64,000 nt of DNA, from assembly GCA_030789695.1 (NCBI GenBank), contig CM061139.1, positions 7,765,878 through 7,829,877 of the forward strand, in the 5' to 3' direction. This document shows positions 15,673 through 56,340 of the stretch, one piece after another. Numbering within the stretch: the stretch's first letter is position 1; each line of letters begins with the position of its first letter. A program made the position numbers and the translations under genes. The notes beneath the pieces are model-generated. The model was not told the origin of the DNA, did no database searches, and saw only the letters and a list, made by a program, of their open reading frames with translations. The DNA comes from Scilla litardierei (taxonomy: Eukaryota > Streptophyta > Magnoliopsida > Asparagales > Asparagaceae).

Positions 15673-16881
15673 GTGAGATGGAGATTTGGCGAGGAGCAAT
15701 GAATTGAAAGTCTCATTTTTAGCTTCTTAGTCAAATGGCGACACAAATGTATATTTTATTTCCCTCTTTGCATTCATTGCATACCTTCATAAATTTTTGT
15801 GTGTGCTTGATTTATTTCTTGTTTGTGTGCTTGTTTTTTTACATCCTAGTTTGCTTGAGTCATTATTTATAAAAATAAAAAAATTGAAAAAGACAAAAAG
15901 AAAAAATCGGTGCTTAATGAATATCTTTTCTCTTTGTATCATTGAAGTAGTATTATTGAATGTCATTCATATCCTTGTAGAAATCATTGTATTATTGTTA
16001 TAGCTACATGCGCATGCTAAAATTCCTAAATAGCCATGACATGCTTAATGAATTGAATAACGTGATTTCTACACCTACGCTTCACTTCAACGAGTATTGA
16101 ATATTGTTGCACAATTGGATAATCTCTTATGAAATGTTGGAAAGTGAATGTAGGTTGAAAATAACTGATAAATCTAAGGGATATGATGTGTATTTGCCAT
16201 GGATAAAAATTGAGCACAAAAGAATTGAATATGAAACAAAAAAAGTTTGAATATTGCTCTGTATGTTAAATGGATTCAATTCATGGCAAGTATACTACCC
16301 ACGAGTATCCAACATATTCTATATAGGTAATCTTTGTTGTTTTCTGTGATTCAAATCCCTTGGAGCAGTTTTTCCCAGGTGACTCGGTCGAGTAGAAGGC
16401 TACTCGGTCGAGTGGTAAACTACTCGACTGAGCAGCATGAAGACTCTGACAGACCGAGCAGGCAGAGAGTTTGGAAAGTTTGCCTTTTGGTTCGGGTGAC
16501 TCCTACTCGGTCGAGTAGGAGGTTGCTCGACCGAGCAGCTGGTAGACGTTGTTTGCCCGAGCAGCCCAAGGGCATGCCGTTTGAAGAGGAATACTGACAC
16601 TCGGACCGAGTAGCTAGGCTACTCGACTGAGTTGACTCGACTCCACCCAGCGACCATTCTAGGGCATATCAGCTCGACCGAGCAGGCCGAGCTGACAGTC
16701 GACTCGGGCCGAGTCAGCGCGCGCCCATGCGCGACAACGAGCGGCCTGGATGCGTTTTCTTCTATTGTTTTGGGTTTATACTTAAACCTAACTATTGTTT
16801 TAGATTAGGTTAAGCCTCTTTTCACTTTTAGAGAGTTTTGGAGAGCCTCTAGCTACCCCATTGGAGATTGGAGAGAGTTTT
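15673..16881 (+). other. 3' spacer of the gag-only copia, with a palindrome array
   Basis: No coding potential. The first half is AT-rich with long A and T runs. The second half contains the array at 16380-16735, then TTTATACTTAAAC and a leader-like GAGAGTTTTGGAGAG stretch. That order (array, TATA-like, leader) looks like an LTR promoter, so an unrecognised solo LTR may be embedded here. The young gypsy element interrupts it at 16882. Confidence 0.5.
16380..16735. repeat. Array of CTCGGTCGAG palindromes, ~20-bp step
   Basis: ACTCGGTCGAGT-type near-palindromes start at 16382, 16402 and 16422 (20-bp step) and at 16505 and 16525. More degenerate copies run to 16735. It is GC-rich in an AT-rich neighbourhood and shows no credible protein. 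Confidence 0.75.
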
Positions 16882-19293
16882 TGTCACGCCCCGCTTCCCT
16901 AAAATGGAGGCGAGACGTGAAAAGGCCCGCACGAGAGTGGGGCTGTGAAGCCCCAAACCCGATAAGCGTCAATAAAACATAAGCAGGTCCCTGTAACCAC
17001 AACGGAACAACAATAATAACACAAGGAGAGACTGAAATAAAATCTCATATCTCACAAATTGTCCAACAAGAAAAATAAGTTCAACATCCAGAAAAGCCAC
17101 CAGGCTAAAAGAAAGAGTCTAAAGGCCCAGAACAAGGCCAACCAAAAGCAACAACATAACAAAGTATAGGTGCTACGCACCGACAACACAACAACAGTCT
17201 AAGCAAAAAGGAAAACACAACAAAGACACTAGGACTGGTCCCCAGTGTCCACGTACTCCCCGACAAACACAAGCTCGGGCTCGGCGTCAGCAAACACCTC
17301 GTCCTCAACAAGGTACTCAGGCTCAAGATCTAACATGTGTCACCCAAAAGAGTAAAGGGGCACATGTCAGCAAGTCTAAAAGACTTGGGCAAGGAAACTG
17401 AAAGTAACACAACTAGCAACCTAGCAGTTTTAGTATGCATGACATGGCAGTTATACATGAGTGCACATGCATTACATGGTGAACAATAAGTACGAGAGAA
17501 CAATTATCGGGACAAGACAAGAGTAGCCAAGCTACTAATCAATCTCAATCAATTCACTAATTCACGTTTCACTGTTGTTTGTAGATGTTTACGCCTTACA
17601 GCTGAACGGTTTGGCATTCACGCTGAGTGGCCGCTTAACAACTACCCCAAAACCCAGAGTTTACGCCTTACAACTGCAGTTGCTGATCAGGCAGACTCCC
17701 AGTTGAATGACCGCTTAACCCTTACCCCATCCCACACGTAAACAAGCCAGGGTCCCTGTACATGAGCCCAGCAAGTGAGCCAGGGTTGCCCCGCACGGGA
17801 GCTTGTTTCTTAGTTCACAATTCAATATCGAGCGTTGGGGTTAGCAACTCATTATGCTCGCTTCTGGTCACGAGCCAGGAAACACAAGTATTGTAGCGAT
17901 GCTACGCAATCACGGGATCACTTGAAGAATGCAATGACATGACAATTAATTTGCGTACCGTTAATGGAAAGTAAACATGACATGGTAATTGTGCAACATG
18001 ATATATGTCGGAACTAGCTTCGTTGTCAAGCTAGTTCCCCAATTTGCGCCTAGGCGAGTATCATTTCGTCGCCAAGCCTCTTTTACGCCTACAACAAGCA
18101 AAATGGCCTAAAACATGGCCTAAACCCTAAGTGGCAAGTTTCACTTGCCTAGCACCGGGGATGACGATCACGAAGGTTCGTCTCGCGGATGATAATCTAC
18201 GGGGAAATCGCTGTTATGGGGAAACAATCATCAAAACAACATTCATTCATTAGGTTTTCATAAAAATACAAATAGGTTATGGAAACATCAAGAGATCGAT
18301 TTCTTACCGAGAGGAGGCGGAAGAAACACTCCGGAGAACCTAGGGATCAGATCTGGAATAGATGGTGAAGTTTGGAGAACTAGGGTTTTTGGGGGATTTT
18401 GGGGATTTGAGAGGTAGAATGAGTTGATGGAGGGTTTAGATGATGGATCTAGGGCTTGGAATGAAGGAATAAGGCTTGGAGGAAGATGGGGGCTCAATGG
18501 GGGAGAAACTAGGGTTTTGGGTCGAGTGGAGGAAGAAGAAAACGTTTGGGAGGGGTATAAATAGGATGGGCTGGCGGCTGCCCAGAAATTAGGGTTTTAA
18601 CACAGATTAGTCGGTCAAAGAGAAACCACTGACCGACTAGTTTGACAACTAGTCGGTCGGTCGACCAACGCAGACCGACTAAGTGTAAACAGTAACTTCT
18701 GGACGAAAATAGGATTTAGATTTAGTCGGTCAAAGAACAACTGCTGACCGACTAGTTTCTCATCTAGTCGGTCGACGAACGTTCTTAGACCGACTAAGAA
18801 TGAACAGTAACTCGGCTGTATAGAAGAACTAGGAATTAGTCGGTCTGAGTACAAAACTTAACCGACTAGTTTGACAACTAGTCGGTCGAAAGATGAACTT
18901 AGACCGACTAAACAGATACAGTAACTCCTGAATTATAATCAAAGCCCACTAGTCTGTCCATTAAGGATTACCGACCGACTAGATTGAGATCTAGTCGGTT
19001 GGTTCTCCTTCTTGAACCAACCAACGTGCACGAAAAGCGCCGATTCGAAGCGCGAAGCTTCGGGAAGATTTCTATGGCTTCTAGGATCGATTTATACTCT
19101 AAGATATGAGCGATTTGAAGCTCGTCACGAATGACTTACTCAGAAATCGACGATCGAAGGAAGAAGCTAGAAAATCACGACGAAACGATCGAAAGTGAAA
19201 GCTATGGCGACGAAACCACACATCCAAGGAGAAAATCCACCAAGCATATATTTTAATATAGATAATCCAATTACACGAAAACCAGTCGTTACA
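16882..19293 (-). repeat. 3' LTR of the young gypsy element
   Basis: Read on the minus strand it contains, in order, a promoter-distal part (19293-19025), the four-quartet array (19024-18605), a TATA-like CTATTTATACC (18554-18565) and a long transcribed part. The plus-strand end GTTACA is next to the polypurine tract TCCTACCCACCTTAG (read as its complement). Confidence 0.9.
18605..19024. repeat. Four quartets of alternating GTCGGTC/GACCGAC sites, 21-bp step
   Basis: Half-sites start at 18610, 18631, 18652, 18673; 18725, 18746, 18767, 18788; 18839, 18860, 18881, 18902; and 18952, 18973, 18994, 19015. All twelve intervals inside quartets are exactly 21 bp, and orientation alternates. Quartets repeat every 113-115 bp, with AACAGTAAC in the linkers. 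The array lies about 40 bp upstream of the TATA-like box on the minus strand. GACCGAC contains ACCGAC, the DRE core. Confidence 0.9.
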
Positions 19294-23208: not shown

Positions 23209-25620
23209 TGTCACGCCCCGCTTCCCTAAAATGGAGGCGAGACATGAAAAGGCCCGCACGAGAGTGGGGCTGTGAAGCCCCAAACCCGATAAGCGTCAAT
23301 AAAACATAAGCAGGTCCCTGTAACCACAACGGAACAACAATAATAACACAAGGAGAGACTGAAATAAAATCTCATATCTCACAAATTGTCCAACAAGAAA
23401 AATAAGTTCAACATCCAGAAAAGCCACCAGGCTAAAAGAAAGAGTCTAAAGGCCCAGAACAAGGCCAACCAAAAGCAACAACATAACAAAGTATAGGTGC
23501 TACGCACCGATAACACAACAACAGTCTAAGCAAAAAGGAAAACACAACGAAGACACTAGGATTGGTCCCCAGTGTCCACGTACTCCCCGACAAACACAAG
23601 CTCGGGCTCGGCGTCAGCAAACACCTCGTCCTCAACAAGGTACTCAGGCTCAAGATCTAACATGTGTCACCCAAAAGAGTAAAGGGGCACATGTCAGCAA
23701 GTCTAAAAGACTTGGGCAAGGAAACTGAAAGTAACACAACTAGCAACCTAGCAGTTTTAGTATGCATGACATGGCAGTTATACATGAGTGCACAAGCATT
23801 ACATGGTGAACAATAAGTACGAGAGAACAATTATCGGGACAAGACAAGAGTAGCCAAGCTACTAATCAATCTCAATCAATTCACTAATTCACGTTTCACT
23901 GTTGTTTGTAGATGTTTACGCCTTACAGCTGAACGGTTTGGCATTCACGCTGAGTGGCCGCTTAACAACTACCCCAAAACCCAGAGTTTACGCCTTACAA
24001 CTGCAGTTGCTGATCAGGCAGACTCCCAGTTGAATGACCGCTTAACCCTTACCCCATCCCACACGTAAACAAGCCAGGGTCCCTGTACATGAGCCCAGCA
24101 AGTGAGCCAGGGTTGCCCCGCACGGGAGCTTGTTTCTTAGTTCACAATTCAATATCGAGCGTTGGGGTTAGCAACTCATTATGCTCGCTTCTGGTCACGA
24201 GCCAGGAAACACAAGTATTGTAGCGATGCTACGCAATCACGGGATCACTTGAAGAATGCAATGACATGACAATTAATTTGCGTACCGTTAATGGAAAGTA
24301 AACATGACATGGTAATTGTGCAACATGATATATGTCGGAACTAGCTTCGTTGTCAAGCTAGTTCCCCAATTTGCGCCTAGGCGAGTATCATTTCGTCGCC
24401 AAGCCTCTTTTACGCCTACAACAAGCAAAATGGCCTAAAACATGGCCTAAACCCTAAGTGGCAAGTTTCACTTGCCTAGCACCGGGGATGACGATCACGA
24501 AGGTTCGTCTCGCGGATGATAATCTACGGGGAAATCGCTGTTATGGGGAAACAATCATCAAAACAACATTCATTCATTAGGTTTTCATAAAAATACAAAT
24601 AGGTTATGGAAACATCAAGAGATCGATTTCTTACCGAGAGGAGGCGGAAGAAACACTCCGGAGAACCTAGGGATCAGATCTGGAATAGATGGTGAAGTTT
24701 GGAGAACTAGGGTTTTTGGGGGATTTTGGGGATTTGAGAGGTAGAATGAGTTGATGGAGGGTTTAGATGATGGATCTAGGGCTTGGAATGAAGGAATAAG
24801 GCTTGGAGGAAGATGGGGGCTCAATGGGGGAGAAACTAGGGTTTTGGGTCGAGTGGAGGAAGAAGAAAACGTTTGGGAGGGGTATAAATAGGATGGGCTG
24901 GCGGCTGCCCAGAAATTAGGGTTTTAACACAGATTAGTCGGTCAAAGAGAAACCACTGACCGACTAGTTTGACAACTAGTCGGTCGGTCGACCAACGCAG
25001 ACCGACTAAGTGTAAACAGTAACTTCTGGACGAAAATAGGATTTAGATTTAGTCGGTCAAAGAACAACTGCTGACCGACTAGTTTCTCATCTAGTCGGTC
25101 GACGAACGTTCTTAGACCGACTAAGAATGAACAGTAACTCGGCTGTATAGAAGAACTAGGAATTAGTCGGTCTGAGTACAAAACTTAACCGACTAGTTTG
25201 ACAACTAGTCGGTCGAAAGATGAACTTAGACCGACTAAACAGATACAATAACTCCTGAATTATAATCAAAGCCCACTAGTCTGTCCATTAAGGATTACCG
25301 ACCGACTAGATTGAGATCTAGTCGGTTGGTTCTCCTTCTTGAACCAACCAACGTGCACGAAAAGCGCCGATTCGAAGCGCGAAGCTTCGGGAAGATTTCT
25401 ATGGCTTCTAGGATCGATTTATACTCTAAGATATGAGCGATTTGAAGCTCGTCACGAATGACTTACTCCGAAATCGACGATCGAAGGAAGAAGCTAGAAA
25501 ATCACGACGAAACGATCGAAAGTGAAAGCTATGGCGACGAAACCACACATCCAAGGAGAAAATCCACCAAGCATATATTTTAATATAGATAATCCAATTA
25601 CACGAAAACCAGTCGTTACA
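23209..25620 (-). repeat. 5' LTR of the young gypsy element
   Basis: 2412 bp, collinear with 16882-19293 at an offset of 6327 with about seven substitutions and no indel seen. It drives transcription leftward. The phased array lies at 24932-25351. Confidence 0.9.
24932..25351. repeat. Phased GTCGGTC/GACCGAC array, 5' LTR copy
   Basis: Same four quartets as 18605-19024, with one substitution seen in a linker (ACAGTAAC to ACAATAAC). Confidence 0.9.
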
Positions 25621-26650: not shown

Positions 26651-28813
26651 TATTGGATACAACGTGTGTTGGATTCAATGATCGATGACTTCGTGTTTGA
26701 TGATAACAAATATGTGTGACTGTTCTAATGTGTGTGTTAATTGTTTTCATGAGTGGCATGCTTGTAAATCTTCAAAGCGATGACTAAGTCAATTGATAGA
26801 GGAATTGCTATTCACATAGCAAATTGGAAGATGTAGAAATTGTTATTCATATAGCAACTTGGACTTGGTCAAATAGATGGTGACTATAGCTACACATATT
26901 GGACCAAGTCAAATTGGAAAAGATCTTATTCAAATCAATTTAAGATTGATTCAAATCCCCATTGCCATTCAAATCCTATTCCAATATGGAGAGATATGGA
27001 GTATCTTTTTCAAATCTCCTTTTGATTGATCCAAATCAATTAAAGATTCTATCAAATCTCCTATCTTATTTGCATCCAAATCCTAATGCCAAGCAACTAG
27101 GAGACTTGGTCAAAGATGGAGTGATATGAAGAATCTCATGCAAATCAAAGGTGATTAAATGAGATCTAATTCAAATCCTATAGCTACACAAATTGAATTC
27201 CATAGCCATTTATATTCAAACTCCATATCCAAAAAGATTCATTCAAACCCTAATCAAATTAGGATTCCTTCCAATCTCCATCAAATATGGGATTTTAATT
27301 GATTCTATCATATCCATATAGACCCATATTCAAAGAGAGGGATTTTGAGAGAGAGGAAACCAAAGAAATTCGGCCACAACCCTAGAGGAAAGCTTCATGG
27401 CCGCAGCTTTGCAAGGAGCTCAACAGACGACGCTAAAAAGTGCATAACTTTCTCCACAGTGCTTGGATCGACGAACCGTTTGCGCCAGGACGATCACAAC
27501 TCAGTGCTCTACAACATGGTGATATTTTCTGAATTTAATCTCTGTATTAAATCAGTGGTATTTATTTTAGCATGAGTTGTATTCTGAATAGCTTCTTATA
27601 TTTTATCAACTTCCTCTAGGCACATCTCCACCTTGCATCAGATATCAAGGAAGCAAACTTCATTGTCCCAAGATCCATCTTCCCTAATAGCCGCAATCAT
27701 ACCTATAGCTTCTCCATTACCTCATTCACCCAAGGCCATAAGATTCTCCCATAGTCGAATATCTCCAAGAACAAAGCTCACATCTTGCGCAACATACCAA
27801 GGCAAAATTGCATCCCACTCCATCATCTTCTCCAAGCCAAAAGAGCCCAAGCTTCATAGAACATCGCCTTGCTCAAGACACCAAAGAATCCAACCCTTCA
27901 CCATGCACAAGTTTCCATTGATGAGAAGAGAACCATAGTCGCAAGTTGCCATTGACGAGAAGAGACATATTGCCACAAGTTGCCATTGAAGAGAAGAGAC
28001 CATAGCCGCAAGTTGCAGCACCCAAACACCAAGAGGAGGATGCTAAAACATCAAGGAAGGGTCTGCACGTGGACTGCTAGAGCAAACAAGGGGCTGCGGA
28101 CGCACTGCGAGGGGGGGGGGTGTGTGTGTGCATGGACTGCAGGGTTCTGTGCACGGACTGCAAGGTTCTGTCCACGCACTGCATGGTTCAGTCCATGCAT
28201 TGCTAGGTTCAGGCCACGCACTACTACTGCACCATCAAGGTAAGGCCACAATATTCAAAGAGGAGCCAAGCAAGAGCGGTAACTTGAGTTGTAGACGAGA
28301 CGAGACGAGACATCTTGCCAGACGAGAACTGGCCAGTGTCGATTGACATAGACGACTACGCCTACACACTGAGATTCTCTAAACTCTTTTACTATTATTT
28401 GTGTGTAGTAGTAACGATCTCTGTAGGGGGAAACTTTACCACTTTTGTGTTCTTTTGGAACTTGTTTAGTGTGGGACTAGACAAGAGGGTCTTAACAAGT
28501 AGGACTTGTCAAGATAGAGCATTTACTATGTTGATAGTGTTCTGCACTCAGGGAGTGTGGTACTTCTAGGTGGGGGTAGGGAGCTCAGGACCCATTGTAG
28601 TTGTACAGAAGGAACATATTAATGCTAGTATTTACTTGGGGGCTGGAGTAAGTCGTGGGACGACCGAACCAGGGTATATCTGCGTGTATTCTGTGATTGC
28701 TTCATATTTACCCTGCGTGTGATTATTAACTGCGTGTGATTTCTCGTGGGTTGCGCGAGAATTTTTTATAAGCCTATTCACCCACGCCTCTAGGCTTAGA
28801 TCCAGATTCAACA
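26651..28813 (+). repeat. 3' LTR of the gag-only copia
   Basis: 2163 bp, ending CCAGATTCAACA and followed by the duplication AGTAA. Its TATA region is altered: CATATCCATATAGACCC at about 27310 in place of CTTATATAAACCC. The 21-bp repeat is longer than in the 5' LTR. Confidence 0.9.
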
Positions 28814-28818
28814 AGTAA

Positions 28819-30785
28819 CAGACTACCCAGGATCCATTCAAATGTTAGTACACAGAATCCACATCGTGCCTGGAAAATGATAGTATCGTGAACGATTATG
28901 CCTGATCGTGGAATGAAATCCTCCCAGACAGGGTCGAAAGACAGGTCCCAGTTGCTCACGCACTCTCACAATAATAAGTTTCCCAAAAACCCGACGAGTT
29001 AAGCTAGTTTAATCAATTATTAGTTTAGTGTCGTGATGGTGTCCAATATTAATTAAACTACATAGTCAGGGGGAAGTCCATAGATAATGATAGAATGTTG
29101 TAACCAGACATGTCTAGAGTTAACCTCAATTCCACCAGTCATCCAGTATCATGTCAGTATCGTGCCATCACAAGAAACATCCCAAGACTACGCAATTTGG
29201 CAATATTAAACTTCCTCGTACAAGCATGCTCCAGGAGATAATGACATGCCATGACAATAAAGCTAGCATAAAGATAAAGTAAGGCATGGATGTTTCTTAT
29301 GATACTCCAAAATGAACAGATATAAACACTCAACTGTTCCATGCAATGAACCAAGAAACAAAGAAACATAATAATTCCTTGATAAAGAAAAGCCCGAAAG
29401 TCAAGCTCCTAATGGCTCTAAGAGATCTAGGCCAGAGGAATCAGATTCCAAGTGAACCACACCGAAGCCCAAACCAGCAAGCCCAACAATAACCCAGGGA
29501 CCCAATAAAGCACGTAAGAGAAGCTACCAAACCTAACAACAAACAAGAACAAAAAAAACAAGTAAGAAAGCTAGCACAATGCATAATAAGTAAGGAGGGC
29601 TAGCCGCAACCCATCAATAAGTAATGAGAGCTATCCACAACCCAACAACAAGCGAGGAGGGCTAGCCGCAATCCAATAACAAGCAAGGAGGGATAGCCAT
29701 AACCCAACGACAAGCAAGGAAGTCCAACCTGCACACAAGGGTAGCCACCGAACTCAATCAACAAGCAAGGAAACCCCACAATAGCAAGTAACGAAGTCAC
29801 CCGACCCAACAACAAGCAAAGTAATCCAAATCAGCAAGCAAGAGACAAGCAAACGACAACAAGGAAACCCAAGGTAGCAAAAAATTGAAATCTGTAGTAA
29901 GGGGATAGAGTCTACTGAAATCGTCGTCGAATAACTGAGAAAATGAAGATCTGAAGCCCAAACAACGAACAAAGGATTCAGCCAAGCCCGATCATCAGCA
30001 GAAAAAGCCAGATGCAAGCCATCAGCAACAAGGAACCCAAAATCAGCAAGTGAGGGAACCACCATACCAATCTCGAGCAAGAAAGTGACAGATCACAAGC
30101 AAGGGGAGCCATTGTACCTCAAAACATCAATGGAAGGACAGGTCGTAGGCAAGGGGAAGCCACGAACTCATCACAAGCAGCAAAAGAGTCAGCCACAACC
30201 ATTAGTCAGTAATGAGACCAAAGCTGCAAGCAAGGGAGGCCATCAAACTCAACTCCAGCAACGAAAGTACAAATCGCAAGCAAGGGGAGCCACCACAGCT
30301 ATCTCAAGCAATGAAGGGACAGATCGTAAGCAAGAGGAGACCCGAACCTAACTCAACGAGGAAGGGACAAACCGCAAGCAAGACGAGCCACCACAGCTTA
30401 AATCAGCAATGGGGGCCTCTTATAGGAGGCAGGGGGGCTGCGAGAGGACGTGAGATATAGGAAGGGGTGCTGTGAAGGACCGAGGGGAAGTGGGGGCGTG
30501 GCACTGTACGCAAGAGGGCGAAGGGGCTCGTCGATGTGTATGAACAGAGGGGGCGTCGTCGAGAGACCCCATCAAGGGCGCGTACCGATGCGACAACAAG
30601 AGGGGAAGAGAGAGGGCTAGGGTCGCGTCGAAGCCCTAAGGCTTGGGGGCGCTATGAATACAAGCAAGAGAGGGGAAAAAAAGAAAAGAAAACCACATGG
30701 ACTTGGGCCTGTTGAGCGGGCCAAAGAAAAATGAAAAGAAAAGAGAAAGAAAAGAAATAGAGGGGGAAGATCATGGGTCGTTGCA
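28819..30785 (-). repeat. Element C 3' LTR, part 2
   Basis: Continues the LTR that starts at 11120 and ends GTCGTTGCA, the same kind of end as the young gypsy LTR (GTCGTTACA). It contains diverged short tandem repeats at 29560-30410 and a purine-rich end. ORFs here are low-complexity products of the repeats. Confidence 0.65.
29560..30410. repeat. Diverged short tandem repeats (about 40-50 bp)
   Basis: CAAGCAAGGAGG or CAAGCAAGGGGAGCCA recurs many times, for example near 29650, 29685, 30098, 30147, 30278 and 30375, at spacings of roughly 35-50 bp. Confidence 0.55.
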
Positions 30786-40608: not shown

Positions 40609-40847
40609 GAGTCCAAACATAGATAAATGAGTTCTCTCCTAAATGTACTTGGACGAAACATCGTTCAACTCTCAAAAATCATCAAACTACCCCATTAATC
40701 ATCGAAAAACTTAAATACGATGTTCAAGAGTAAATTCGAGCATAAATTCCAAATATTCACAAAAATCCCGAAAGAATCCAATAAGTCTAGCATGAACAAA
40801 TATAGCGAAATAGAATAGCATGAAAGATTATTGAATAAAAATGAATC

Positions 40848-42463
40848 CTATATCTCGGATTCACCCATAATCCCCAATTCTCGACGCAACCGCACAAAGG
40901 AGTCCTCCTTTAGGGGTTTCGTGAAAATATCGGCGATTTGCTTCTGGGTTTCAACGTACACTAATAAGATGTCCTTTTTAGCAACATGATCATCTAAGAA
41001 ATGGTGTCGGACATCTATGTGTTTAGAACGGGAATGGTGCACTGGATTCTTTGAAAGACAAATGGCACTTTAGTTGTCCACCATGATAGGGCTAGTATCA
41101 CAATGTATACCAAAATCCTTAAGTGTGTGTCTCATCCAAAGAACCTGGGCACATGCAGCACCGACGACAATGTATTCCGCCTCGGTGGTAGAAAGTGATA
41201 CGGAATTTTGCTTCTTGGAAAACCAAGAGACAAGAGAATTTCCTATAAAATGGCAAGTGCCACTAGTACTCTTCCTGTCGGATTTGCATCCCGCATAATC
41301 AGCGTCACTATATGAGACTAACTCATACGTGCTAGATTTTGGATAAAGTAATCCGAAGTCTAAAGTGTAACTTAAATAGTGAAAAATACGTTTTACCGCT
41401 ACTAAGTGAGAATCCTTAGGTTGAGACTGATAACGAGCACAAATACATACGACAAACATAATATCGGGCCTACTAGCGGTAAGATAAAGTAAACTACCTA
41501 TCATACCTCGATATAGACGAATGTCTACATCTTTTCCGCCCGTATCTTTATCAAGATGCGTAGTAGTGCTCATTGGAGTCTTTTTCCCGGAGGCACTCTC
41601 CATTCCAAATCGCTTTAGCAACTCCACCGTGTACTTCGTTTGGTGGATGAAGATTCCATCGTTCATTTGGTGAATTTGGAGACCTAAGAAATATTTGAGC
41701 TCTCCCATATGGCTCATCTCAAATTGTTCCTTCATAACATTAGAAAACTCTTCGCAAAGAGCGATGTTAGTAGCACCGAAAATGATATCATCAACATAAA
41801 TTTGAACTAAAAGTATATCATTATTCGAATGCTTAACAAAAAGTGTAGAATCGGCTTCTCCCATTTTAAAATTCAAATCCAAAAGAAAATTCTTTAGGCG
41901 ATCATACCAAGCTCGAGGAGCTTGTCTCAAACCGTAAAGTGCTTTCTTTAGTTTAAAAACATGATTTGGAAATTTTTCATTAATAAAGCCCGGAGGTTGA
42001 GAAACATAAACTTCCTCAACGACATCTCCGTTTAAAAATGCACTTTTTACATCCATTTGAAATAGTTTGAAATTTTTATGGCATGTAAAAGATAACAATA
42101 ATCTAATAGATTCTAATCTAGCTACCGGAGTGAAGGATTTTTCGAAATCGATACCTTCCTCTGTCGATAGCCTTGAGCTACTAACCGAGCCTTGTTCCGG
42201 ACGACGATTTGGTTCTCGTCGGTTTTGTTCTTGAAGATCCACTTCGTTCCTATAACGGTGTGGTTCTTCGAAGGCAATGGAACAAGCTCCCATACCTCAT
42301 TCCTCTCGAATTGAATGAGTTCCTTCTCCATGGCAAGGATCCAAGCACTATCTTCGCACGCTTCATTTATATTCTTTGGCTCAATCGAGGAGACAAAGGC
42401 ACAATTGGCGAAGTGTTGGACTTACGATCTCGTCTTGACTCTATCATGAATATTGCCAATGAC
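40848..42463 (-). pseudogene. pol: SIRE pol, reverse transcriptase and RNase H
   Basis: The RT starts in one frame (42331-42170: WELVPLPSKNHTVIGTKWIF, KARLVAQGY) and moves to another after a one-base shift near 42170 (GIDFEKSFTPVARLESIR). It then has QMDVKSAFLNG, the catalytic YVDDIIFG (about 41787-41810) and GELKYFLGLQI. RNase H follows with SDADYAGC and STTEAEYI. An in-frame TAA at 41070 (CAA expected) precedes the tail SKHIDVRHHFL and KQIADIFTKPL, which ends at 40848. Two further TAA codons lie upstream near 42420-42466. All catalytic residues remain. Confidence 0.9.
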
Positions 42464-44322
42464 TTACTCATGGGGATGGTCACGAATGGTATGAAGCTGT
42501 TTGGGAATTTCTTGATCACTAGGAACATTCTCAACAACTTCATTAGTCGGGTTAGTATCAATAGAATCAATAGAATCAATAGACTTAGAATTATCAATAG
42601 AATCACATAAAACATCCATTGAATCATCATCATTTGAAATTCTAGAAGGAATAAAATTTTCATTAAAAGAGACATGTAGTGATTCCTCGATCGTCGAGGA
42701 TCTTTTGTTGTATATCCAGTAGGCTTTGCTATGTGAGGAATACCCAACAAATATCCCCTCATCCGATCTCGGATCAAACTTGTCCATATTTTCATAAGTG
42801 TTTTTAATAAAACATTTCGCACCAAAAACACGAAAATGTTTAACTTGAGGTAATCTACTAAACAACAATTCATAACAAGTTTGTTTGGTGCCGGGTCTCA
42901 AAAGTATTCTATTAAACACATAGCAAGCGGTGTGTACCGCTTCCGCCCAAAATTGATGGCCAAGTTGGCTATCATCGAGCATTGTGCGAGCACACTCCAC
43001 AAGCATTCTATTCTTTCTCTCAATAACACCATTTTGAGGGGGTGCGCGAGGAAAGGAAAACGTGTGTGTAATTCCAAGATCATCACAAAAAGTTGAGAAA
43101 GACTCATTCTCAAATTCACCTCCATGATCACTACGAATAGTGACAATGGTGGTTCCGATGAGATTTTGTACTTTCTTCACAAATGTTGTGAAGTTTTCAA
43201 AAGCTTTATTTTTATTACATAAGAAAAATACCCATGTAAATCTCGAAAAATCATCTACGATGACAAGCCCATATCTAGCATTTCCTAAAGAAGCAACTCT
43301 AGTTGGCCCAAATAAATCTAGATGTAATAGCTCTAGAGGCCGTTTAGTAGAAATGCTTTTCTTAGGTTTAAATGAAGATTTAGGAAGCTTGCCTCGTTGA
43401 CATGAGTCACAAAAACTTTTCTTTTCAAAAACAAGCTTAGGAAAACCTTTAATGGAATTTAATTTTGAAAGCTTAAAAAGTGTTCCAAAGTTCACATGAC
43501 CAAAGCGTCGATGCCATAAGTGTTGTTCACTTGTGTTGGCAACGAGACATTGTTCATATGACTTAGGAAAATCCAAAATATAAATATCTTTATGGCGTGT
43601 GCCGGAAAATAATAAATCATTATTAACATTATTAAAAATGTGACACAATCCTTTCGCAAATCTAACTTTGTAACCCTTGTCACAAAGTTGGCTTATTGAA
43701 ATAAGATTGTGGTTTAAACCATTAATAAGATAGACATAACTAATTAAGGGTTTAGATGGGTTACCCACTTTACCAACACCGACGATGGTTCCGCTCTCGT
43801 TGCCTCCAAAGATTACCCGGTTCCCATTAGCAATGGGCACCACTTCGGAAAGCAATTGAGCATCGCCCGTCATGTGTTTTGAACACCCGCTATCGAGTAT
43901 CCACCCATCCTTGGAGCCAAATTTGACTTTATTGCTCCGTTTGTTTTTCTTGAGTACCTAAAGATGATTATATCATTTCATGGTACCCAAGATCATTGGG
44001 TCCTCAAAGGTTAGACCTTTAGAAGCCAAGTCCAATTGGACTTAGACTTCCCAATATAATTAATATTATCCACTACATTCAAAAAATAATCATTCATGTA
44101 GATTTGTTTTTCATCCATACTTGTGTCCTTTGGGCTCCAAATTGAGAATATTTTGGGAGCCTTAATCCTATTGGGAGCATGCATGCTTTGTTGATTTCTA
44201 CGTGATGCATGTCGTGGATAGGTAAAAGGAACATGATGAAATGGTGCATGTGGATAATTATTCATATGACGATGTGGGTGAACATATGCATGTGAGGGAA
44301 CACGTGCGTGAGGGTGTCTCAC
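42464..44322 (-). pseudogene. pol: SIRE pol, protease and integrase
   Basis: From 44322 to about 44025 the gag-pol linker continues in frame after a TAA at 44326-44328. A one-base shift near 44035 and a TAG near 43955 follow. Protease has WILDSGCSKHMTGD (about 43915-43860) with the catalytic DSG. The integrase zinc-binding domain has HLWHRRFGHVNF and FCDSCQRGK. The core has HLDLFGP, IRSDHGGEFEN and NGVIERKNR, with 35 residues between the second Asp and the Glu. All three acidic residues are present. The 469 codons from 43873 to 42464 are uninterrupted. Confidence 0.9.
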
Positions 44323-44325
44323 ATG

Positions 44326-46245
44326 TTATGCACGTGCCCGTGAATGTGTAGCATAGAAATCATCATATGAGTGAGCCGGTGGAGTAGGACGTGTGTTCCT
44401 ACGTGGCATAGTATTGGTGTACATGTAGGCATGGCCCTTCTTTGGAGGTCCACCCAAAGTGGGTTTCTTTCCGAAAGAGGGTGTGGACGAGGTGGAAGCA
44501 CCATTGGTAGATGAACTATCAATAGAGTGTTTGCTACCACTCGTCGAAGCACCGGAAGTTGGCCTAACAAAAGTAGTGGCCGATTTGGATGAAGTTCCCA
44601 TCGTATACCCCAAGCCAATGTGGTGATTGGCCGGAAGTAAGTCACTTAGGATTTTATCCAAATGGTCCTTACCTTTATTGAATTTATTAATTCGGCCTAA
44701 TGTGTTCTCATATTTCTCGGTGAGAGAACGCATAGAAGCATCCAAAGTGGATACTTGCGATATGAGCACATAAACACGAGATTTAAGATTCTCATTCTCA
44801 ATACTCAAGGTCGAGTTTTGAGAAGTTAAATCCTCTATCTTGTGTTCCTCCGGATCCTCAATACTAACATGTTCAAGTTGAGTCTTGAGATTAACAATCT
44901 TATTCTTCAACCCTTCAACAACGGTGTCGTTGTTGGTGATGATAGTTTTAGGTGAGGTTTGGATGCTAACTAGCTCATCTTTAGTCTTATTATATCGTTT
45001 AACTAATTTAGCATATCTATTCCATATTTTCTCATTAGGTAGTCTAAGGTCATACATAGTTACCTCATCGCTTTCATCCTCGCTATCATCGGAGGCGGGT
45101 TCTTGAACATTTTCCTCGTTAGCCATGAAACATACGTGCGCTTGCTCCACTTTCACATCATCCGACTCCCCGCTTGAAGAGTCATCTTCAGAATCGGTGA
45201 AACCGACAAATCCTTTCTTGTAGCCTTTCTTATACTTCTTCGATTTGTCGTACTTCGACGCCTTCCACTTTTCCTTTTGCTTGTTTTGTGGACAATCCGC
45301 TTTGATGTGTCCTGGCTTATTGCATTTAAAGCACAAAGGAGGAGAGGCGTTAGTAGAAGTAAATTTAGATTTGCCTTTGAAGTTACCTTTTCGGAAGAAG
45401 CGATTGAACTTCTTTGCCATGAGGGCAATGGATTCCATGTCCATTTCGTCTTCCGAGTCCTCGTCATCGGTAGAGGTGGATGGAGACGCCTTGAACGTAA
45501 TCGCCTTTTTCTTAGGCACGTCTTGGTTCAAGTAAGACTTCATCTTCTCTTGTAACTTCACCTTGCTATCATTGCGTACCTCGTATGACATTAAAGTACC
45601 TATTAATTGAACTATGGTATACTTGTTCATATCGTTACCTTCCTCGATGGCGAAGGTACGCTTTTCCCAACTAGAAGGAAGTCCTTCTATAAGCTTCGAA
45701 CATTTCTCCTTTTGGGTGTAGGTTTTGCCAAGAGCCTCTAACTTGTTTATGATGTCGACGAAGCGAGCATAATACTGCTTCATCTTCTCACCCTGTATCA
45801 TATGAAACATCTCGTAATCTTTATTAACTACAACGAGTTTAGAGTCCCTTACCCTACTCGTCCCTTCATGTAAGATGAGGAGGGAGTTCCAAATTTGATA
45901 TGCACTCTTACATGTGCATATCTTATTGAAGTCCTCGGGCTCCAATGCGCATTGCAAGGCGTTCATTGCCTTGGCATTGCTTACCTCCGCGGCGACCTCC
46001 GAGGGAGTCCACTTCTCGAAATCTTCTTCGGTGGGCTCGACATACTCCTTCATTGTGGTCCTCCATAGTGAAGCACTCCGGAGGAAAGTTTCCATCCGGC
46101 ATTTCCAGTACCCGTAGTTGGTACCGTTGAAGAATGGAGGCCTCGTTGAGGAATGTCCTTCCATTACCGAAGAAGCTCCTTCACGGTTCTTGAGGGTGCT
46201 ATAATCCGAAGGTGGACACACGGTCTTGTTGTCGTTGGCAGACAT
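44326..46245 (-). CDS. gag: SIRE gag polyprotein, uninterrupted
   Basis: 639 codons from the ATG at 46245, 11 bp before the priming site. The Gag core is RPPFFNGTNYGYWKCRMETF, AKAMNALQCALEPEDFNKI, YQIWNSLLILHEGTSRVRDS and IEGLPSSWEKRTFAIEE (residues 30-230). An acidic region precedes the zinc knuckle CFKCNKPGHIKADC (about residues 302-315). Then come a Lys-rich stretch, a coiled-coil region (400-520) and a Ser/Thr/Gly-rich tail. Gag forms the particle in the cytoplasm and binds RNA. The closing TAA at 44326 is probably a mutation of a sense codon, since the frame continues as the gag-pol linker. Confidence 0.93.
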   Translation of the reverse strand: MSANDNKTVCPPSDYSTLKNREGASSVMEGHSSTRPPFFNGTNYGYWKCRMETFLRSASLWRTTMKEYVEPTEEDFEKWTPSEVAAEVSNAKAMNALQCALEPEDFNKICTCKSAYQIWNSLLILHEGTSRVRDSKLVVVNKDYEMFHMIQGEKMKQYYARFVDIINKLEALGKTYTQKEKCSKLIEGLPSSWEKRTFAIEEGNDMNKYTIVQLIGTLMSYEVRNDSKVKLQEKMKSYLNQDVPKKKAITFKASPSTSTDDEDSEDEMDMESIALMAKKFNRFFRKGNFKGKSKFTSTNASPPLCFKCNKPGHIKADCPQNKQKEKWKASKYDKSKKYKKGYKKGFVGFTDSEDDSSSGESDDVKVEQAHVCFMANEENVQEPASDDSEDESDEVTMYDLRLPNEKIWNRYAKLVKRYNKTKDELVSIQTSPKTIITNNDTVVEGLKNKIVNLKTQLEHVSIEDPEEHKIEDLTSQNSTLSIENENLKSRVYVLISQVSTLDASMRSLTEKYENTLGRINKFNKGKDHLDKILSDLLPANHHIGLGYTMGTSSKSATTFVRPTSGASTSGSKHSIDSSSTNGASTSSTPSFGKKPTLGGPPKKGHAYMYTNTMPRRNTRPTPPAHSYDDFYATHSRARA

Positions 46246-46255
46246 AGCTTAGTAT

Positions 46256-46272: not shown

Positions 46273-48021
46273 TGTAATGCCCTGAAAGCTTCTGCACAAG
46301 TACTAGAGGGGGGGGGGGTGAATAGTACTTTAAAAATAACAAGGAGTATAATTCCTAATTATCGTGCAAACTACTACCAACAAACGCGGAAGCTAAAAAT
46401 GACAACAACAAATATTCAATGCTAACAATTGAAATGATGGGTTCGGATCCACCCAAGTCTCCTCGACTTGTACGCGGTGATCCTACGTCCCAGAACACCC
46501 GGATCCCCTCCGGATACTTAGGTTAGAAACCCTAACCCAAGATTTCCACTATGAATACCTTGTGAAAAACCTTCACAAGATCAAATCATACAATCAATAG
46601 CAATAGTGAATCCCACAACCCGGGATCACAACCTTCTCTCACAACCGAGAGAATCAATAGCAATAAAAGAGTTTATATGAAATAAACAACAACTTACCAC
46701 AAACCCTATACCTTGAGTATTCTTACCAAATTAGGGCAATGAGGGATTTGAGGAAGGAGAAGTCACCAAGACCTAGCACCACCAATATGAGCAGCAATGG
46801 GTGCCTAGGAATGAATAGGAGACTTGAATCAAGCAATAGCTTGGATGGCTCAACAAGAACAAGGTTCTCTCAAGATGGATTCTAGATCTCAAATGAGGGA
46901 GAGAAAGATTTCTTGTGAGGAAGAGAGCTTTGGAAATGAGTTTTAATCTCTAACTCTTTCAATCTGAATAAGTCTCTCAATAGCAGCTCTAACCTGGAGA
47001 GAAATGACCAAGCTTCGTATTTATAGGGTCCCACAAAATCGAGCTAGGTCATCTCCCAACGGTTGGAAATCTGGGGCAATTAGTCGGTCAAAGAACAACC
47101 ACTGACCGACTAGTTCATCAACTAGTCGGTCGATGGAACAACATGAACCGACTAAAGGATGAACAATGAACAAATGAAATTTCAGACCTAGATAACTAGT
47201 CGGTCCAAGAAGACTTTCCGACTGACTAATTTCTCAACTAGTCAGTCGGTCAGTTAACTTAGACCGATTAAGAGTCAAAAACTATTAGCCTGAATACAAC
47301 TTGATTTAGTCGGTCCAAGAACAAATGTTGACCGACTAGATCATCAACTAGTCGGTCACCAAACGTTCTTAGACCGACTAACGATAAACAGTAACTCAGG
47401 TGAAAAATTGGCATGTACAGTAAAGCTCAACTAGTCGGTCTAAGAAGCATCACTGACCGAATAGTTCACCAACTAGTCGGTCGGTGAGTCAACTAAGACC
47501 GACTAACTGTAAACAGTAAAGAGCTTAGAATTTAGGAGACAAACTAGTCGGTCCAAGAAGCTTTTCCGACCGACTAGATCACCATCTAGTCGGTTGGTTC
47601 TTCTTCTTGAACCAACTAACATACACAAGAAGTCCCGATTCGAAGCGCGATGCTTCGGGAAAGTTTGAATGGACTTCTGCTAAGATCCTAGCTCTAAGAT
47701 AGGAGCGATATGAAGATTAAATGATAATACCTACTCAAGGTTTAACATTCTAAAGAACAAAGCTAGAAGACTAAATATAAATCTAGACAAACCGTCTTCA
47801 AACGCTTCGATCGAATCTTCATGGCTTCAAAGTTGGTCCAAAAGCTTCAACGAAGCTTTAGGCATATGAATACGTGCTTTGAGAAGTCTTGAGACGTCGC
47901 TTTGGATGTTCACGTGAATTTGGCGACGGTCTCCATAACTGCGCTCACAAAGTGTTAGTTCACGATTTATTTATGTTTGCTCATCATCCAAAACCAAATA
48001 CGGGGAGTCCAATACTCAACA
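46273..48021 (-). repeat. SIRE 5' LTR
   Basis: 1749 bp, collinear with the 3' LTR at an offset of 10682. The run of C has 11 bases here against 12. The phased array lies at 47081-47618 and the TATA box at 47018-47027. Confidence 0.95.
47081..47618. repeat. Phased GTCGGTC/GACCGAC array, SIRE 5' LTR copy
   Basis: Same five quartets as 36399-36936. Several of the LTR-LTR differences fall in the sites, such as GACCGAC to GACTGAC and GACCGAAT for GACCGACT. Confidence 0.9.
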
Positions 48022-51135: not shown

Positions 51136-52985
51136 TCTCTCGCCCTCCCCGATTGCTCTCCTGCATGACTCCATCCTAGGTTGGCTAGGGTTATCGCGCT
51201 AACCCGGTACTTCCATTCCAATTCTGTTTATGTTTTACGTCACCCAACCTTATAAGTAGTGGCGCTGCCTGATCTTATTAGCTTCTCACTGTCCCAGTGT
51301 CTCCCCCTCCTATCATTGTGCCCATCTTTCTTTTCGGGGCCCAGCTTAGTCCAGCTTGGGGGAGTCACATTCTGGTGTCGATTTTTGTTGTCCATAGTGT
51401 CCATATTGTACATACTATGCATCATCATCACCTGCATCATCATCATCTCCATTTTTTGTATATACATACATATTGCACATACGCATATGCATCCTTTATA
51501 CCTTATTCTATCTTTCTTCCCATCCACCCCACCCTTAGCATCATCTCCAGTCTCTATGCCTGTGTTCTCAGCAGTGAGAACACTATTGTGTTTAGCTTGG
51601 GGGATGAGCGCTATCGTTTTTTACTTATTCTTTTTCCTTATTCCCATTTCTAGTTCCACTACCACCCCATTTCCCCCCTTTTATTATCATTTTTATTTTT
51701 TCTTTTCTTATTTGTCGAATACATGTTTTTCATTTTTTCCTCCTTTTCTTTTATTTAGACTAAAGATGATTCTCCTATGATTGCACTATAAGCTACAAAC
51801 CCTCAACTTATCTGCTTTACACACTCACGTAGGATTCGCCATAGCCTATTGCGCGTCACCGCATATTTATATAGAATGGATTATGATTTTGAACTCTATG
51901 CTTCCGTGTGTTAAAGATATTCCTTATTAGGATGCTTTTTAATATGCTTTTCCATGCTTTGAATTCGTATTCTCCACAACGAGTATTCGCGAAATAGTTA
52001 AGCTTGAAAATGCAGGACTAATTGAAAATTTAGTGAAATTTGCTTGATTGAGTGAAAACACATATTTTCATAATGGATGGTAGTTCAATTGGGTTTGGAT
52101 AACCCACGACACTTAAGTAGCGTCTACTGGATATTCTGAAATCTAGTCATTTCCCAATTCTATGTTTTTTATTTTTTGTATATAGCCAATTGCGATCCTT
52201 AATCGGGCTTTGCATTCCATCGCATTTACGTAATTTTGCAAAAATCCCAAAAAAAAATGAAAAAAATGCAAAAACCAAAAAATAATACATACGAATAATA
52301 AGCCCGAGGGGTTCTTCGTAACCCGATGCCCTAAGACCATCTGGTCTAGGATGGATATGCCGCCTCTTGTATATATTGAGTTATCTCATGTATATAAGAA
52401 AATAAAAGTATGTATATATAAAGAAAATTGTATAGCCAAAAACAATTGTAAAAAGAAAAATCCCACATCTCTACCTCACTTTCTATATAGAATAGGGACA
52501 TGGCAAGGTCGATGATTTCTAGGAATTGTGAAAGAGTTTAGTGCGGTGATTTCTGGATTTAATTGAACTTACCATCCTCATTTATGAAAATAATTAAAAT
52601 CATCTTGCATGCTTGAATGAATTGATCATGATACTATTCGCTGCTTAGAGAATAGTTGTGGAGATTTGGATTCGAACCATGGATTTTGTACATTGATTGC
52701 ATGCTATAATAGGAATTTCCCTCTATTTCATATCATATATACGAGTTCACGCTATTCATTGAAAAATCTATTCTATATATAATTCATGCTAGACTTGATG
52801 AATCCTCAAGAGTAGTGCCTTTTTAAATTATAAAGTTGAAGTGTTGTTGTGTGCTATGAGGTAAGGTGATGATTTAGTCGCCTTTCCTATATTTTAGTTT
52901 CCTTTGCACTTCTTTGTTTTTACCCTCCGGTGAACTTCTTATTCGTCTTACTCGAGGACGAGTAAGAGGTAAGCTTAGGGGATTT
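51136..52985 (+). other. Athila-1 3' spacer
   Basis: 1.85 kb without a credible gene. It includes AGCTTGGGGGAGTCAC (about 51353) and AGCTTGGGGGATGAG (about 51595), two purine tracts like the real one, and a long pyrimidine-rich stretch at 51480-51760 that opens a hydrophobic but meaningless ORF. It ends with CTCGAGGACGAGTAAGAGG and the polypurine tract AGCTTAGGGGATTT (about 52972-52985), standard for the group. Confidence 0.6.
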
Positions 52986-54709
52986 TGTTGTGTCTATATT
53001 TTCCATGTTTTTACCATGCATTTCAATGTCGTTTCGATCGTCTGAATCCATATTTTCATATTATATCACGCTTTTCTCGATATTCTTGATCCTTTCGATG
53101 TTTTATGTGTTTTCAGGGGATTCGGAGCGATACGGGGTTTTGTACACAACATCGACGCCAAAGCTCGCTTCGCCTTGCCATGACGACCCAAGGAGGCCAA
53201 AGAAGCGAGGGAGTGGAGTAGAGGAAGAGAGGAGAAGAGAAGAAGAGAGGAAAAGAGAAGAGAAGGAGATTGTGAGAAGTTGCCAGTTCGCTCGGCCGAG
53301 CGCATGATGCGGTCGGTCGAGCTGTGATACGCCAAGGAGCAATGGAATTCTTCTTCGAGGCGCTTGGCCGAGTGACAAGCCCGCTCACCCGAGCTAGCCA
53401 TCAGAAGAGACAATCAAAGAAGGATATAGGCTCTGGAAATTTTGAAGCTTAATTCGCTCGACCGAGCGACATGACGCTCGGTCGAGCGACTCAACTCGCT
53501 CGCCCGAGCGGCCCCTTCTCGAGCGCCAAGTGGAGCGATACACAAGGCACCGCTCGGCCGAGCGAGTACTGCGCTCGACCGAGCGGTATGTCGGCAGACT
53601 CCATTTTGACTTAAAATAACGGGGTTCGATTTGGTTTTCTTGTAAAAGCCGAACCCAAACTATTTTGTATAAATAGTGAACGTTTTTTAGAGTATGTTAA
53701 GCTGTTTTTGCTGTAGCTAAAACCCTTAGAGCTATTTTGGGAGCTCTCATTTTGATAAACTCTTTTGCAATCTAAATCTTTGTTTGTGGTTGGATTTTCT
53801 TGATTTCTTCGTCATTGCTCTCATTTCTCTTACTCTCTCTATTGAAATCAATTTCATGCAATTTGACCGGTTGGATATGTTTAACTCTATTGCTACTGTA
53901 TTTAGGGCTTTTGCCATGCTAGAGTAGTGGGTTTCTATGGCTTAGGGATGATCCCTAGGATCCTAAGGATCTGATGTTAGGTTAGACCCCCGTTGGATAA
54001 ATCTAGGATTGCATATGGTGGTTTGAACAAGAGTTTTGGGGGATTGACCTTAGGATCGAAGTATCACGAAGGCGGCTCCGTATCCTAGGGAGAATCCACA
54101 CGAATTCGATTTGGGCTTAGCAGCCGTTTATAGGGTTCGTGATCACGAGAGTGACTCGAGAGCTACGGCGACAGTTAATCCCCAATCCGCTAGTCGGCGA
54201 CTGCGAGAGCACACCAATTGCTAGAACCGATCATTGGGTAGCGTCGCAACCCGTGGATCACGAGAGTAGATACTGAGTTGCGAGGTGGGACCAAGTGTCA
54301 AGATTAATACACGCATCCCCATGTGAAGCCGACTGTGAGAGCACGGTTTTGCATAGGGATGTGTTAGACAAATAGGAACAATGAAAGTTAAGTACTCATT
54401 CTCATCTACGGATGTGACACTCCTACCCTAGTCCATCGTCTGACGTAGGGCTATTCAACCTAGCATCCATGACCGAAGGGCCTAGCGGGGAATCCAGGAG
54501 GCCTTAGACATTTAATTTCTAGTTAACTCTCGATTTCCATAATCAACCCATCAATCAATCATGTCAACCCTCGATCACACACTCTCCTCCTTCCATTTAA
54601 AGCTAAGCGTTAAACAACTGCCTCCCTGAGTTCGACAATCTTTCTATACTATAGCTCACCGTGAACTTGCGGTGATTCGTGCCCTAGTGGTGCAAACCCG
54701 GGGACCGAA
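52986..54709 (+). repeat. Athila-1 3' LTR, lacking its last two bases
   Basis: 1724 bp. It ends GGGGACCGAA, whereas the 5' LTR ends GGGGACCGAACA. The array is shorter here: about 63 bp are missing, equal to three 21-bp units. TATA at 53666-53676. Confidence 0.85.
53288..53592. repeat. CTCGGCCGAG array, Athila-1 3' LTR copy
   Basis: Same family as 31697-32067 with fewer units. The GAGTACTG-CTCG unit occurs once (about 53563-53583) instead of three times. Confidence 0.8.
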
Positions 54710-55815: not shown

Positions 55816-55823
55816 TTTTATAC
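55816..55823 (-). promoter_or_regulatory. TATA box of the Athila-2 LTR
   Basis: GTATAAAA on the minus strand, about 115 bp downstream of the palindrome array. Confidence 0.65.
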
Positions 55824-55937
55824 TCCCTAGGGATTGCATCTCATCCATCCAAAACATCATCACCCATAGCAACTGGAGAGAAATCAGGTTAAGAAAAACT
55901 CGTTTCTTGCAACCCAGAATGCGGGTGAAAACCCCCA

Positions 55938-56340
55938 ATCAGTCGACTGTCGAACAAATGGCAGTCGACTAGTGACAGGTGGATGTCATTGCTACCAAAG
56001 GGCGACCGACGACCGGTGACTGTCTTAAAAATCACAGTCGCCTGTGTGATCCATAGGCGACTGTCTTTTGTTCTTCAGTCGCCTGCTGCAGAAGTGTCAA
56101 AATAACAGAGAGTCGGCTCTTCTGCTCCCTCAGGCATCTGGAAATTAGTCGACTGATGTGAAGATGATATGCGACTGTACAATATTACAGTCGACTGTCA
56201 ATCCTCTTATAGGAGACTGTCATTGGGCTTCAGCTTGTCCAGCTCCAGTTCTTTAAAGGCAGGCGACTGCCGGTGTTTGCGCTGTTGACTGTCTGGTTTT
56301 CCAGGCGACTGGCGTTCCTTCTACATGCGCCTGTTTTGTA
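55938..56340. repeat. Array of AGTCGACT / GGCGACTG sites, ~21-bp step
   Basis: Perfect palindromes AGTCGACT at 55941 and 55963. Alternating GGTGAC, AGTCGCC, GGCGACT and AGTCGCC sites lie at 56015, 56036, 56056 and 56077. More degenerate copies run to about 56320. Steps of 20-22 bp recur. Confidence 0.7.

Follow-up and report, generated by a model that had tools for sequence, protein, structure and literature searches.

Base-pair-exact arrays of CpG palindromes ahead of TATA or TATA-like boxes in Ty1 and Ty3 elements of one plant genome

Why do several long terminal repeat (LTR) elements of one plant genome carry arrays of short CpG-containing palindromes, spaced at about two turns of the DNA helix, ahead of their TATA boxes? 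The question is raised by a 64,000-nucleotide stretch of Scilla litardierei DNA with nested LTR elements (G000:C10:7765878-7829877 of a 3.68-Gb assembly; hereafter the window). An earlier note on this DNA had placed such arrays in four LTRs, and all four were found where it put them, in element A (18605-19024, minus strand), SIRE (36399-36936, minus strand), Athila-1 (31697-32067, plus strand), and Athila-2 (55938-56340, minus strand). Each array is followed, on the sense strand of its element, by a TATA or TATA-like box, as had also been claimed. The boxes were TATTTATA in element A (18556-18563, minus strand; TATA-like), CTATAAATA in SIRE (36337-36345, minus strand), TATAAATA in Athila-1 (32140-32147, plus strand), and TATAAAA in Athila-2 (55816-55822, minus strand; TATA-like), lying 49, 60, approximately 90, and approximately 120 bp from the last site, respectively (the latter two by sequence reading). 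The arrays are thus a real feature, but the independent origin that had been proposed for them is wrong for the best pair, element A and SIRE.

The LTR pairs, defined by self-comparison of the window, were 99.7% identical in element A (16882-19293 and 23209-25620, minus strand; a GTTTT direct repeat was read at both flanks) and 98.1% identical in SIRE (35591-37339 and 46273-48021, minus strand). The left LTR array consists of four TAGTCGGTC quartets in element A and five in SIRE, with the last site of the fourth and fifth quartet degenerate, respectively; the right LTRs carry the same arrays (24932-25351 and 47080-47618, respectively, minus strand), according to the self-comparison and a site scan. 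A third TAGTCGGTC array, absent from the earlier note, lies in the linker of SIRE, with pol on one side and the downstream open reading frames (ORFs) on the other (40261-40612, minus strand). In both elements, the sites alternate in orientation (forward-reverse-forward-reverse, F-R-F-R) and are grouped as quartets. At sites with at most one mismatch, and with two overlapping extra hits left out (18658 and 36800), all 25 within-quartet intervals of the two left LTRs measured 22/20/22 bp by CpG centre, which corresponds to 21/21/21 bp by the centre of the GTCGGTC 7-mer (or of CGG). The earlier count of 27 out of 27 intervals of 21 bp therefore stands as 25 out of 25, and reaching 27 requires two sites that fail the one-mismatch limit. 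Random placement matched the observed count in none of 20,000 trials. The gaps between quartets were 46-61 bp, and growth of the arrays by tandem duplication was visible as periods of 114-115 and 21, where approximately 114 bp corresponds to duplication of a quartet.

The claim of a regular step became stronger in the whole genome, where 238,937 GACCGACTAG..CTAGTCGGTC pairs with a gap of 0-30 were found and 238,470 of them (99.8%) had a gap of exactly 8, with no occurrence of the reversed control. Pairs of AGTCGGTC..GACCGACT in the same gap range numbered 502,783 (20 for the control), and the gap was 14 in 100 of 100 listed places, which here and below are the first ones on one chromosome; their spacers were diverse. 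The distance between quartets, by CpG centre, was 44-60 bp in 100 listed of 180,245 places (44 bp in 6, 45 in 10, 46 in 1, 48 in 1, 49 in 18, 50 in 22, 51 in 20, 52 in 16, and 60 in 6), with the upper end of this range cut off by the search window of 30-60. The CTCGGCCGAG and CAGTCGACTG palindromes gave 90,144 and 32,684 pairs with a gap of 0-30 (26 and 18 for the controls, respectively). Among 100 listed CTCGGCCGAG pairs with 52 distinct spacers, the step was 21 in 31, 22 in 52, 23 in 16, and 38 in one, that is, 21-23 in 99; among 50 listed CAGTCGACTG pairs, likewise with diverse spacers, it was 22 in 39, 20 in 7, 19 in one, and 39-40 in 3. As the earlier note had proposed, the motifs differ (AGTCGGTC, CTCGGCCGAG, and CAGTCGACTG), yet all of them centre on TCG/CGA with a step near two helical turns in the listed places. 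One recent tandem duplication per family, which had been named as a possible source of such spacing, is ruled out by the diversity of the spacers among the listed places of all three motifs. Tandem duplication does account for the last four Athila-1 palindromes and for the duplication of quartets.

Among 14 stretches of 10 kb taken as an unbiased sample from fixed, arbitrary places (L015-L028), 2 contained a TAGTCGGTC array. A count of 8-mers with a CpG, made without reference to any motif in 13 of these stretches and with L019 left out as a tandem array (G000:C4:1000001; its first 1.8 kb is mostly such an array), showed a direct-repeat peak at 42 bp and inverted peaks at 24 and 22 bp, start to start. 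Ten element stretches, with both LTRs counted where present, contained 247 exact sites. Forward-to-reverse neighbours within 120 bp numbered 100, of which 99 were 22 bp apart; of 87 reverse-to-forward neighbours, the 46 closer than 45 bp were all at 20 bp, and 39 further neighbours had equal orientation and were 42 bp or more apart. Ten LTR pairs showed 10/416 gap openings per mismatch in quartet spacers versus 385/1802 outside quartets; the p-value of 7.6e-21 is indicative only, as the LTR pairs overlap and exact spacing in one member of each was the basis on which quartets were chosen.

The array of element A and that of SIRE belong to one homologous U3 block (18596-19172 and 36499-37086, respectively, both on the minus strand) with 78% of aligned bases identical, which rules out that the two layouts arose independently. 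The block is approximately 580 bp long and extends approximately 170 bp past the array on its upstream side. No homology was found in the remainder of the two LTRs, where the best score was 30 versus 43 for the best of 20 shuffles, and 22 versus 31 on the other side.

The two carriers of this block belong to different superfamilies. Regarding SIRE, its gag-pol region (41070-46248, minus strand) matched Ty1/copia gag, integrase, and RVT_2 in Pfam as separate ORF pieces, and RVT_2, rve, gag_pre-integrs, and Retrotran_gag_2 were above the cut-off, that is, the gag-pol domains of Ty1/copia. Together with CGG-CCG palindromes ahead of the TATA box and a polyC-rich signal (by sequence reading, a G-run at approximately 35626-35637 on the plus strand, approximately 35 bp from the LTR end), these are Sirevirus features. 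Less clear is the polypurine tract (PPT): AGGGGGAG adjoins the SIRE LTR, but by sequence reading the dinucleotide is AA, where the Sirevirus pattern has AT and then the TG of the LTR start. Element A had no Pfam domain in any of six frames, and its earlier designation as gypsy is not given by its own coding content; its placement comes via a relative elsewhere in the genome, L009, whose LTR shares 90% of aligned bases with that of element A. Because L009 carries Ty3 domains (Retrotrans_gag, RVT_1, RT_RNaseH, and Integrase_H2C2, all above the Pfam cut-off; a Chromo match of 21.9 bits was below the cut-off of 25.1), the LTR family of element A is Ty3. L011 is Ty3 as well by Pfam, the LTR of L010 is A-like (85%) with no match to pol in that element, and L012 and L026 have the SIRE LTR and a SIRE-type gag in common with SIRE. 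Overall, the element A family is Ty3 and chromovirus-like, and SIRE is a Ty1 Sirevirus.

When SIRE-type LTRs were aligned locally with those of A type or of L011, every best alignment lay at the array and the sequence around it, with both LTRs in the same orientation, and some extended to the TATA region. Over the 97 aligned columns up to and including the first site, element A and SIRE were 0.81 identical, which is above the values within families (0.75 for A-L009, 0.76 for SIRE-L012, and 0.78 for SIRE-L026). In the preceding 115 columns, the A-SIRE value fell to 0.50, compared with 0.71 for A-L009 and 0.76 for SIRE-L012. The signal is approximately 97 bp long, and over the same columns the identity of element A to its closest relative, L010, was 0.89, above that of A-SIRE. 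Since element A is closer to L010 than to SIRE there, any exchange would predate the split of A and L010, and the pattern, over this short stretch, is the one expected from a Ty1-Ty3 exchange before that split.

Arrays of other palindromes were found in further LTRs of the window. Athila-1 (LTRs at 31395-33181 and 52986-54709, 85.9% identical by self-comparison) and Athila-2 (3' LTR starting at 54712) had Ty3 domains in Pfam (reverse transcriptase, RNase H, and rve); the name Athila, also used in the earlier note, is a presumed lineage label. In the left Athila-1 array, the CTCGGCCGAG palindromes have a step of mostly 21 bp (6 of 10 intervals), and the last four are repeats of a 21-bp unit that is nearly the same in each; in the right array (53290-53585, plus strand), 5 of 8 intervals were 20-22 bp (21, 21, 20, 22, and 21). 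A remnant LTR carries CTCGGTCGAG-like palindromes (16380-16682, plus strand) with a step of 20 (19), where 20, 20, 20, and 19 occurred among 7 intervals and 21 in none. In Athila-2, the AGTCGACT-like palindromes had steps of 19-22 and 42 (22, 19, 22, 42, and 42 among 9 intervals, with 21 in none), so that spacing was not strict in this copy. Chance, modelled as random placement, was rejected for element A, for SIRE, and for Athila-1 in both copies. The rejection was weaker in the remnant (p=0.007 for 20-22), and there was none in Athila-2 (p=0.11 for 20-22). The statement that all arrays step by 21 bp or within one base was overstated for Athila-2. The remnant LTR (16382-16682) is broken by the insertion of element A approximately 200 bp further on. 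Elsewhere in the genome, elements with CTCGGCCGAG arrays were present in L029-L031, with repeat copies approximately 5-6 kb apart in L029 and L031; all three matched the PPT/LTR-start stretch of Athila-1 (52910-53131), and none matched the pol pieces of the window.

The distance from the last site to the TATA-like box was 49-53 bp in four Ty3-family LTRs (A, L009, L010, and L011), and that to the TATA box was 60 bp in three Sirevirus-type LTRs (SIRE, L012, and L026). With the exception of the SIRE linker array, all arrays in the window lie in an LTR ahead of a TATA or TATA-like box. A CpG was present in every intact site, and the observed/expected CpG ratio, 0.76 in the window, was 1.0-1.3 in the arrays of element A, SIRE, the linker, and Athila-1; the remnant had 0.95 and Athila-2 had 0.82. 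The TAGTCGGTC site includes RCCGAC, the core of the dehydration-responsive element/C-repeat (DRE/CRT), and G/ACCGAC is given as the target of DREB/CBF factors in the accessible text of PMC4849061. Per kb, RCCGAC occurred 38-39 times in the LTR arrays of SIRE and element A and 34 times in that of the linker, compared with 1.8 times in the window; the density was 0 in the Athila-1 array and the remnant and 5 in Athila-2. A DREB factor could, judging from the motif, be a candidate binder of the TAGTCGGTC sites; because RCCGAC is absent from the Athila-1 array, it could explain only one of the motifs.

The reading that we favour, to which we give about an even chance, is that the arrays are U3 enhancer modules acting as double-stranded DNA. 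Short CpG-containing sites approximately two helical turns apart, some 50-120 bp ahead of the TATA box and with dyad symmetry either within a single site (Athila types) or between the members of an inverted pair (TAGTCGGTC type), would be occupied by a putative dimeric or oligomeric plant DNA-binding factor. Bound to adjacent sites at a set geometry, it would activate transcription of the LTR. Exact spacing in hundreds of thousands of copies despite drift of the spacers points to one physical complex. The TAGTCGGTC form would represent one homologous block that moved between a Sirevirus family (Ty1) and a chromovirus-like family (Ty3); the simplest route would be a template switch while RNAs packaged together were being reverse transcribed. 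The Athila-type arrays have a nearly equal step with other palindromes. The analysis shows the sites, their spacing and its rigidity in this genome, the homologous block, its Ty1 and Ty3 carriers, and the placement ahead of TATA, whereas the protein that binds, its cooperative action, the role as an enhancer, and the way in which the block moved are inferred. The broader proposition, that exchange and convergence have given the Ty1 and Ty3 elements of one genome a common, rigid enhancer layout with sites two helical turns apart, fixed to the base pair over approximately 240,000 copies, through which one host nucleoprotein complex would control both, is tentative, and we hold it with somewhat less than even confidence.

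Several observations weigh against this reading. Each quartet is a single imperfect 75-bp palindrome with covarying spacers, and the inter-site spacers of CTCGGCCGAG are self-complementary (0.41 versus 0.26 after shuffling of their letters, over 51 distinct spacers); neither is expected for independent protein sites. Nor does the step match one exact period of the helix, being 22/20/22 in quartets and 21-23 in CTCGGCCGAG. A helical phase of 10.5 bp was not kept across quartets (p=0.24 in element A and p=0.50 in SIRE), which gives no support in these two elements to the earlier claim that all sites face one side of the helix; it was kept weakly in the two related Athila-1 copies (p=0.02 and 0.05). 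The genome counts represent amplified families and measure rigidity, not independent origins. The listed places are not a random sample, and the sampled spacers fell into a few loose clusters (7 for AGTCGGTC at 60% identity, and 19 for CTCGGCCGAG and 13 for CAGTCGACTG at 70%).

The symmetry of the quartets may instead indicate that the unit is an RNA hairpin, with a stem of approximately 33 bp per quartet in the genomic RNA that would be diced to small interfering RNAs (siRNAs) or used by the element, and with a spacing that keeps the register; we regard this as unlikely. The U3 of the 3' LTR is transcribed, so such hairpins would sit in every genomic RNA and not just in the read-through RNA that the earlier note had considered as a source of siRNAs. 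The predicted folds are strong, with z-scores of -12.2, -17.7, -8.6, and -3.3 for element A, SIRE, Athila-1, and Athila-2, respectively. When the sites were fixed and the spacers shuffled, all 57 distinct quartets of a set in which sites had at most 3 mismatches in all (orientation was assumed for the 8 quartets from L017) folded better than the mean of their own 60 shuffles, with a mean predicted energy of -41.7 versus -31.2 kcal/mol. Hotspots of small-RNA mapping on Sirevirus LTR palindromes in maize are also in line with a hairpin, as far as the accessible parts of PMC5311732 and PMC10760457 describe them. A stem, however, requires equal arms and not an identical absolute length across copies. 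In the same 57 quartets, Watson-Crick pairs between sense-strand spacers numbered 410 of 798, compared with 210 expected from composition, whereas G-T pairs numbered 52 (90 by composition and 58.8 under column-keeping shuffles) and A-C pairs 123 (100 and 130.6, respectively), so that both were slightly low against the column-keeping shuffles and the sense-strand spacers had no G-U preference. A sense-RNA hairpin as the sole cause is therefore disfavoured. The sites themselves showed 61 deviations, of which 51 were C>T or G>A and 59 had no compensation by the pairing partner. Since a pure hairpin would allow compensation, the uncompensated deviations indicate a constraint on the sites at the sequence level, and we read this constraint as sequence-specific DNA sites within a DNA-level symmetry, rather than as an RNA hairpin kept for its fold.

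The symmetry may also have a mutational origin, which likewise seems improbable to us as an account of the whole pattern, in which template switching at imperfect palindromes (quasi-palindrome correction, or gene conversion between repeats) would match both arms and spacing with little or no function. In the 57 quartets, the outer spacers were Watson-Crick paired in 51% of cells, compared with 45% with partners from other quartets and 19-42% in slid registers. Of the double changes, 27.7% kept their Watson-Crick pairing in the true register and 5.9-11.8% did so in slid ones. These retained double changes, together with G-T and A-C pairs that do not differ in direction under column-keeping shuffles and with the clear growth of the arrays by tandem duplication, are what such a process would produce, and the spacer symmetry itself may have a mutational origin. 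Correction would, however, equalize the arms and leave the absolute gap unfixed, whereas the gap of 8 was kept in 99.8% of pairs despite spacer drift and varying distances between quartets; the nearly equal step in three different motifs and the placement of the LTR arrays ahead of TATA or TATA-like boxes also argue against it. Arrays recognized by a transposon protein are known from VANC proteins of VANDAL transposons, which bind short-motif arrays, and the present arrays may similarly receive an anti-silencing or methylation factor, encoded by the element or by the host, rather than a transcriptional activator. This would agree with the CpG in every intact site, the raised CpG ratios of most arrays, and the second SIRE array away from the promoter, but we consider it very unlikely; the lower ratios in the remnant and Athila-2 count against it, as does the array in element A, which has no recognizable coding region.

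Other repeats in the window were distinct from these arrays. Another LTR-like repeat (11652-13772 and 26653-28816) contains 21-bp tandem repeats of the GCACTG..CAGTCC type at 13106-13182 and 28127-28222, which are plain tandem repeats, unlike the CpG palindromes. A 61-bp tandem unit occurs three times at 9351-9532, with copies 92% alike. An element fragment with almost no internal region (30700-31394) is cut by Athila-1, and its PPT-like and primer-binding-site-like borders resemble those of element A by eye.

Palindromic boxes in LTRs were published in 2010 for Sireviruses without a proven function. According to the accessible text, these repeated-motif (RM) boxes are palindromic with a CGG-CCG core in all but one, number 8-32 per element, and lie mostly in the upstream half of the LTR ahead of a conserved TATA box, while further copies stand in the linker that precedes ENV; they were described as specific to Sireviruses, and classic Ty1/copia elements were said to lack them (Bousios et al. 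2010, PMC2829016). The SIRE of the window resembles this description in its palindromic array, linker copies, and TATA box. The linker array lies between pol and the ORFs at 38341-39989, a position as published for ENV-bearing Sireviruses, and the one of these ORFs that was searched in Pfam gave a sub-threshold match to PF20167 (41.0 versus 45 bits), so that it is at most an ENV candidate. Unlike the published box, the CGG and CCG halves of SIRE stand in separate sites 20-22 bp apart, and, unlike in the Sirevirus system, the arrays here extend to Ty3 elements, Ty1 and Ty3 carriers have a homologous TAGTCGGTC block, and the step hardly varies; no spacing between RM boxes is given in the accessible text of PMC2829016. 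In maize, Sirevirus LTR palindromes are reported to be clustered in the cis-regulatory region with strong predicted structure and to be linked to small RNAs (PMC5311732, PMC10760457, in part). The present arrays are similar in their clusters and strong predicted structure and differ in that covariation does not favour a sense-RNA hairpin. The LTRs of plant Del/Tekay elements, a Ty3 lineage, have CpG islands upstream of the TATA box in a variable 5' region, which corresponds to the CpG-rich 5' LTR part in a Ty3 lineage here; in the accessible text of that paper (PMC4029996), the terms 'palindrom' and 'repeated motif' do not occur, and no phased sites are described.

The kind of feature, palindromic LTR boxes before a TATA box, is thus known, while the base-pair-exact step, the Ty3 carriers, and the cross-superfamily block did not turn up in the literature searched and are apparently new, within the incomplete coverage given by the accessible parts of PMC2829016, PMC5311732, PMC10760457, PMC4029996, PMC4977677, PMC3601003, and PMC12477314. 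If the reading as exchanged enhancer modules is true, movement of the U3 block between Ty1 and Ty3 would mean that retrotransposons of different superfamilies trade promoters in modular form, and that the host, in controlling one superfamily, can affect the other. Promoter-proximal binding sites repeated at approximately 21 bp are familiar from the 21-bp repeats of SV40 and the 21-bp Tax-responsive repeats of HTLV-1. Those cases involve unrelated viruses and factors and are repeats of one unit, whereas in the arrays described here the spacers differ and the TAGTCGGTC sites alternate in orientation.

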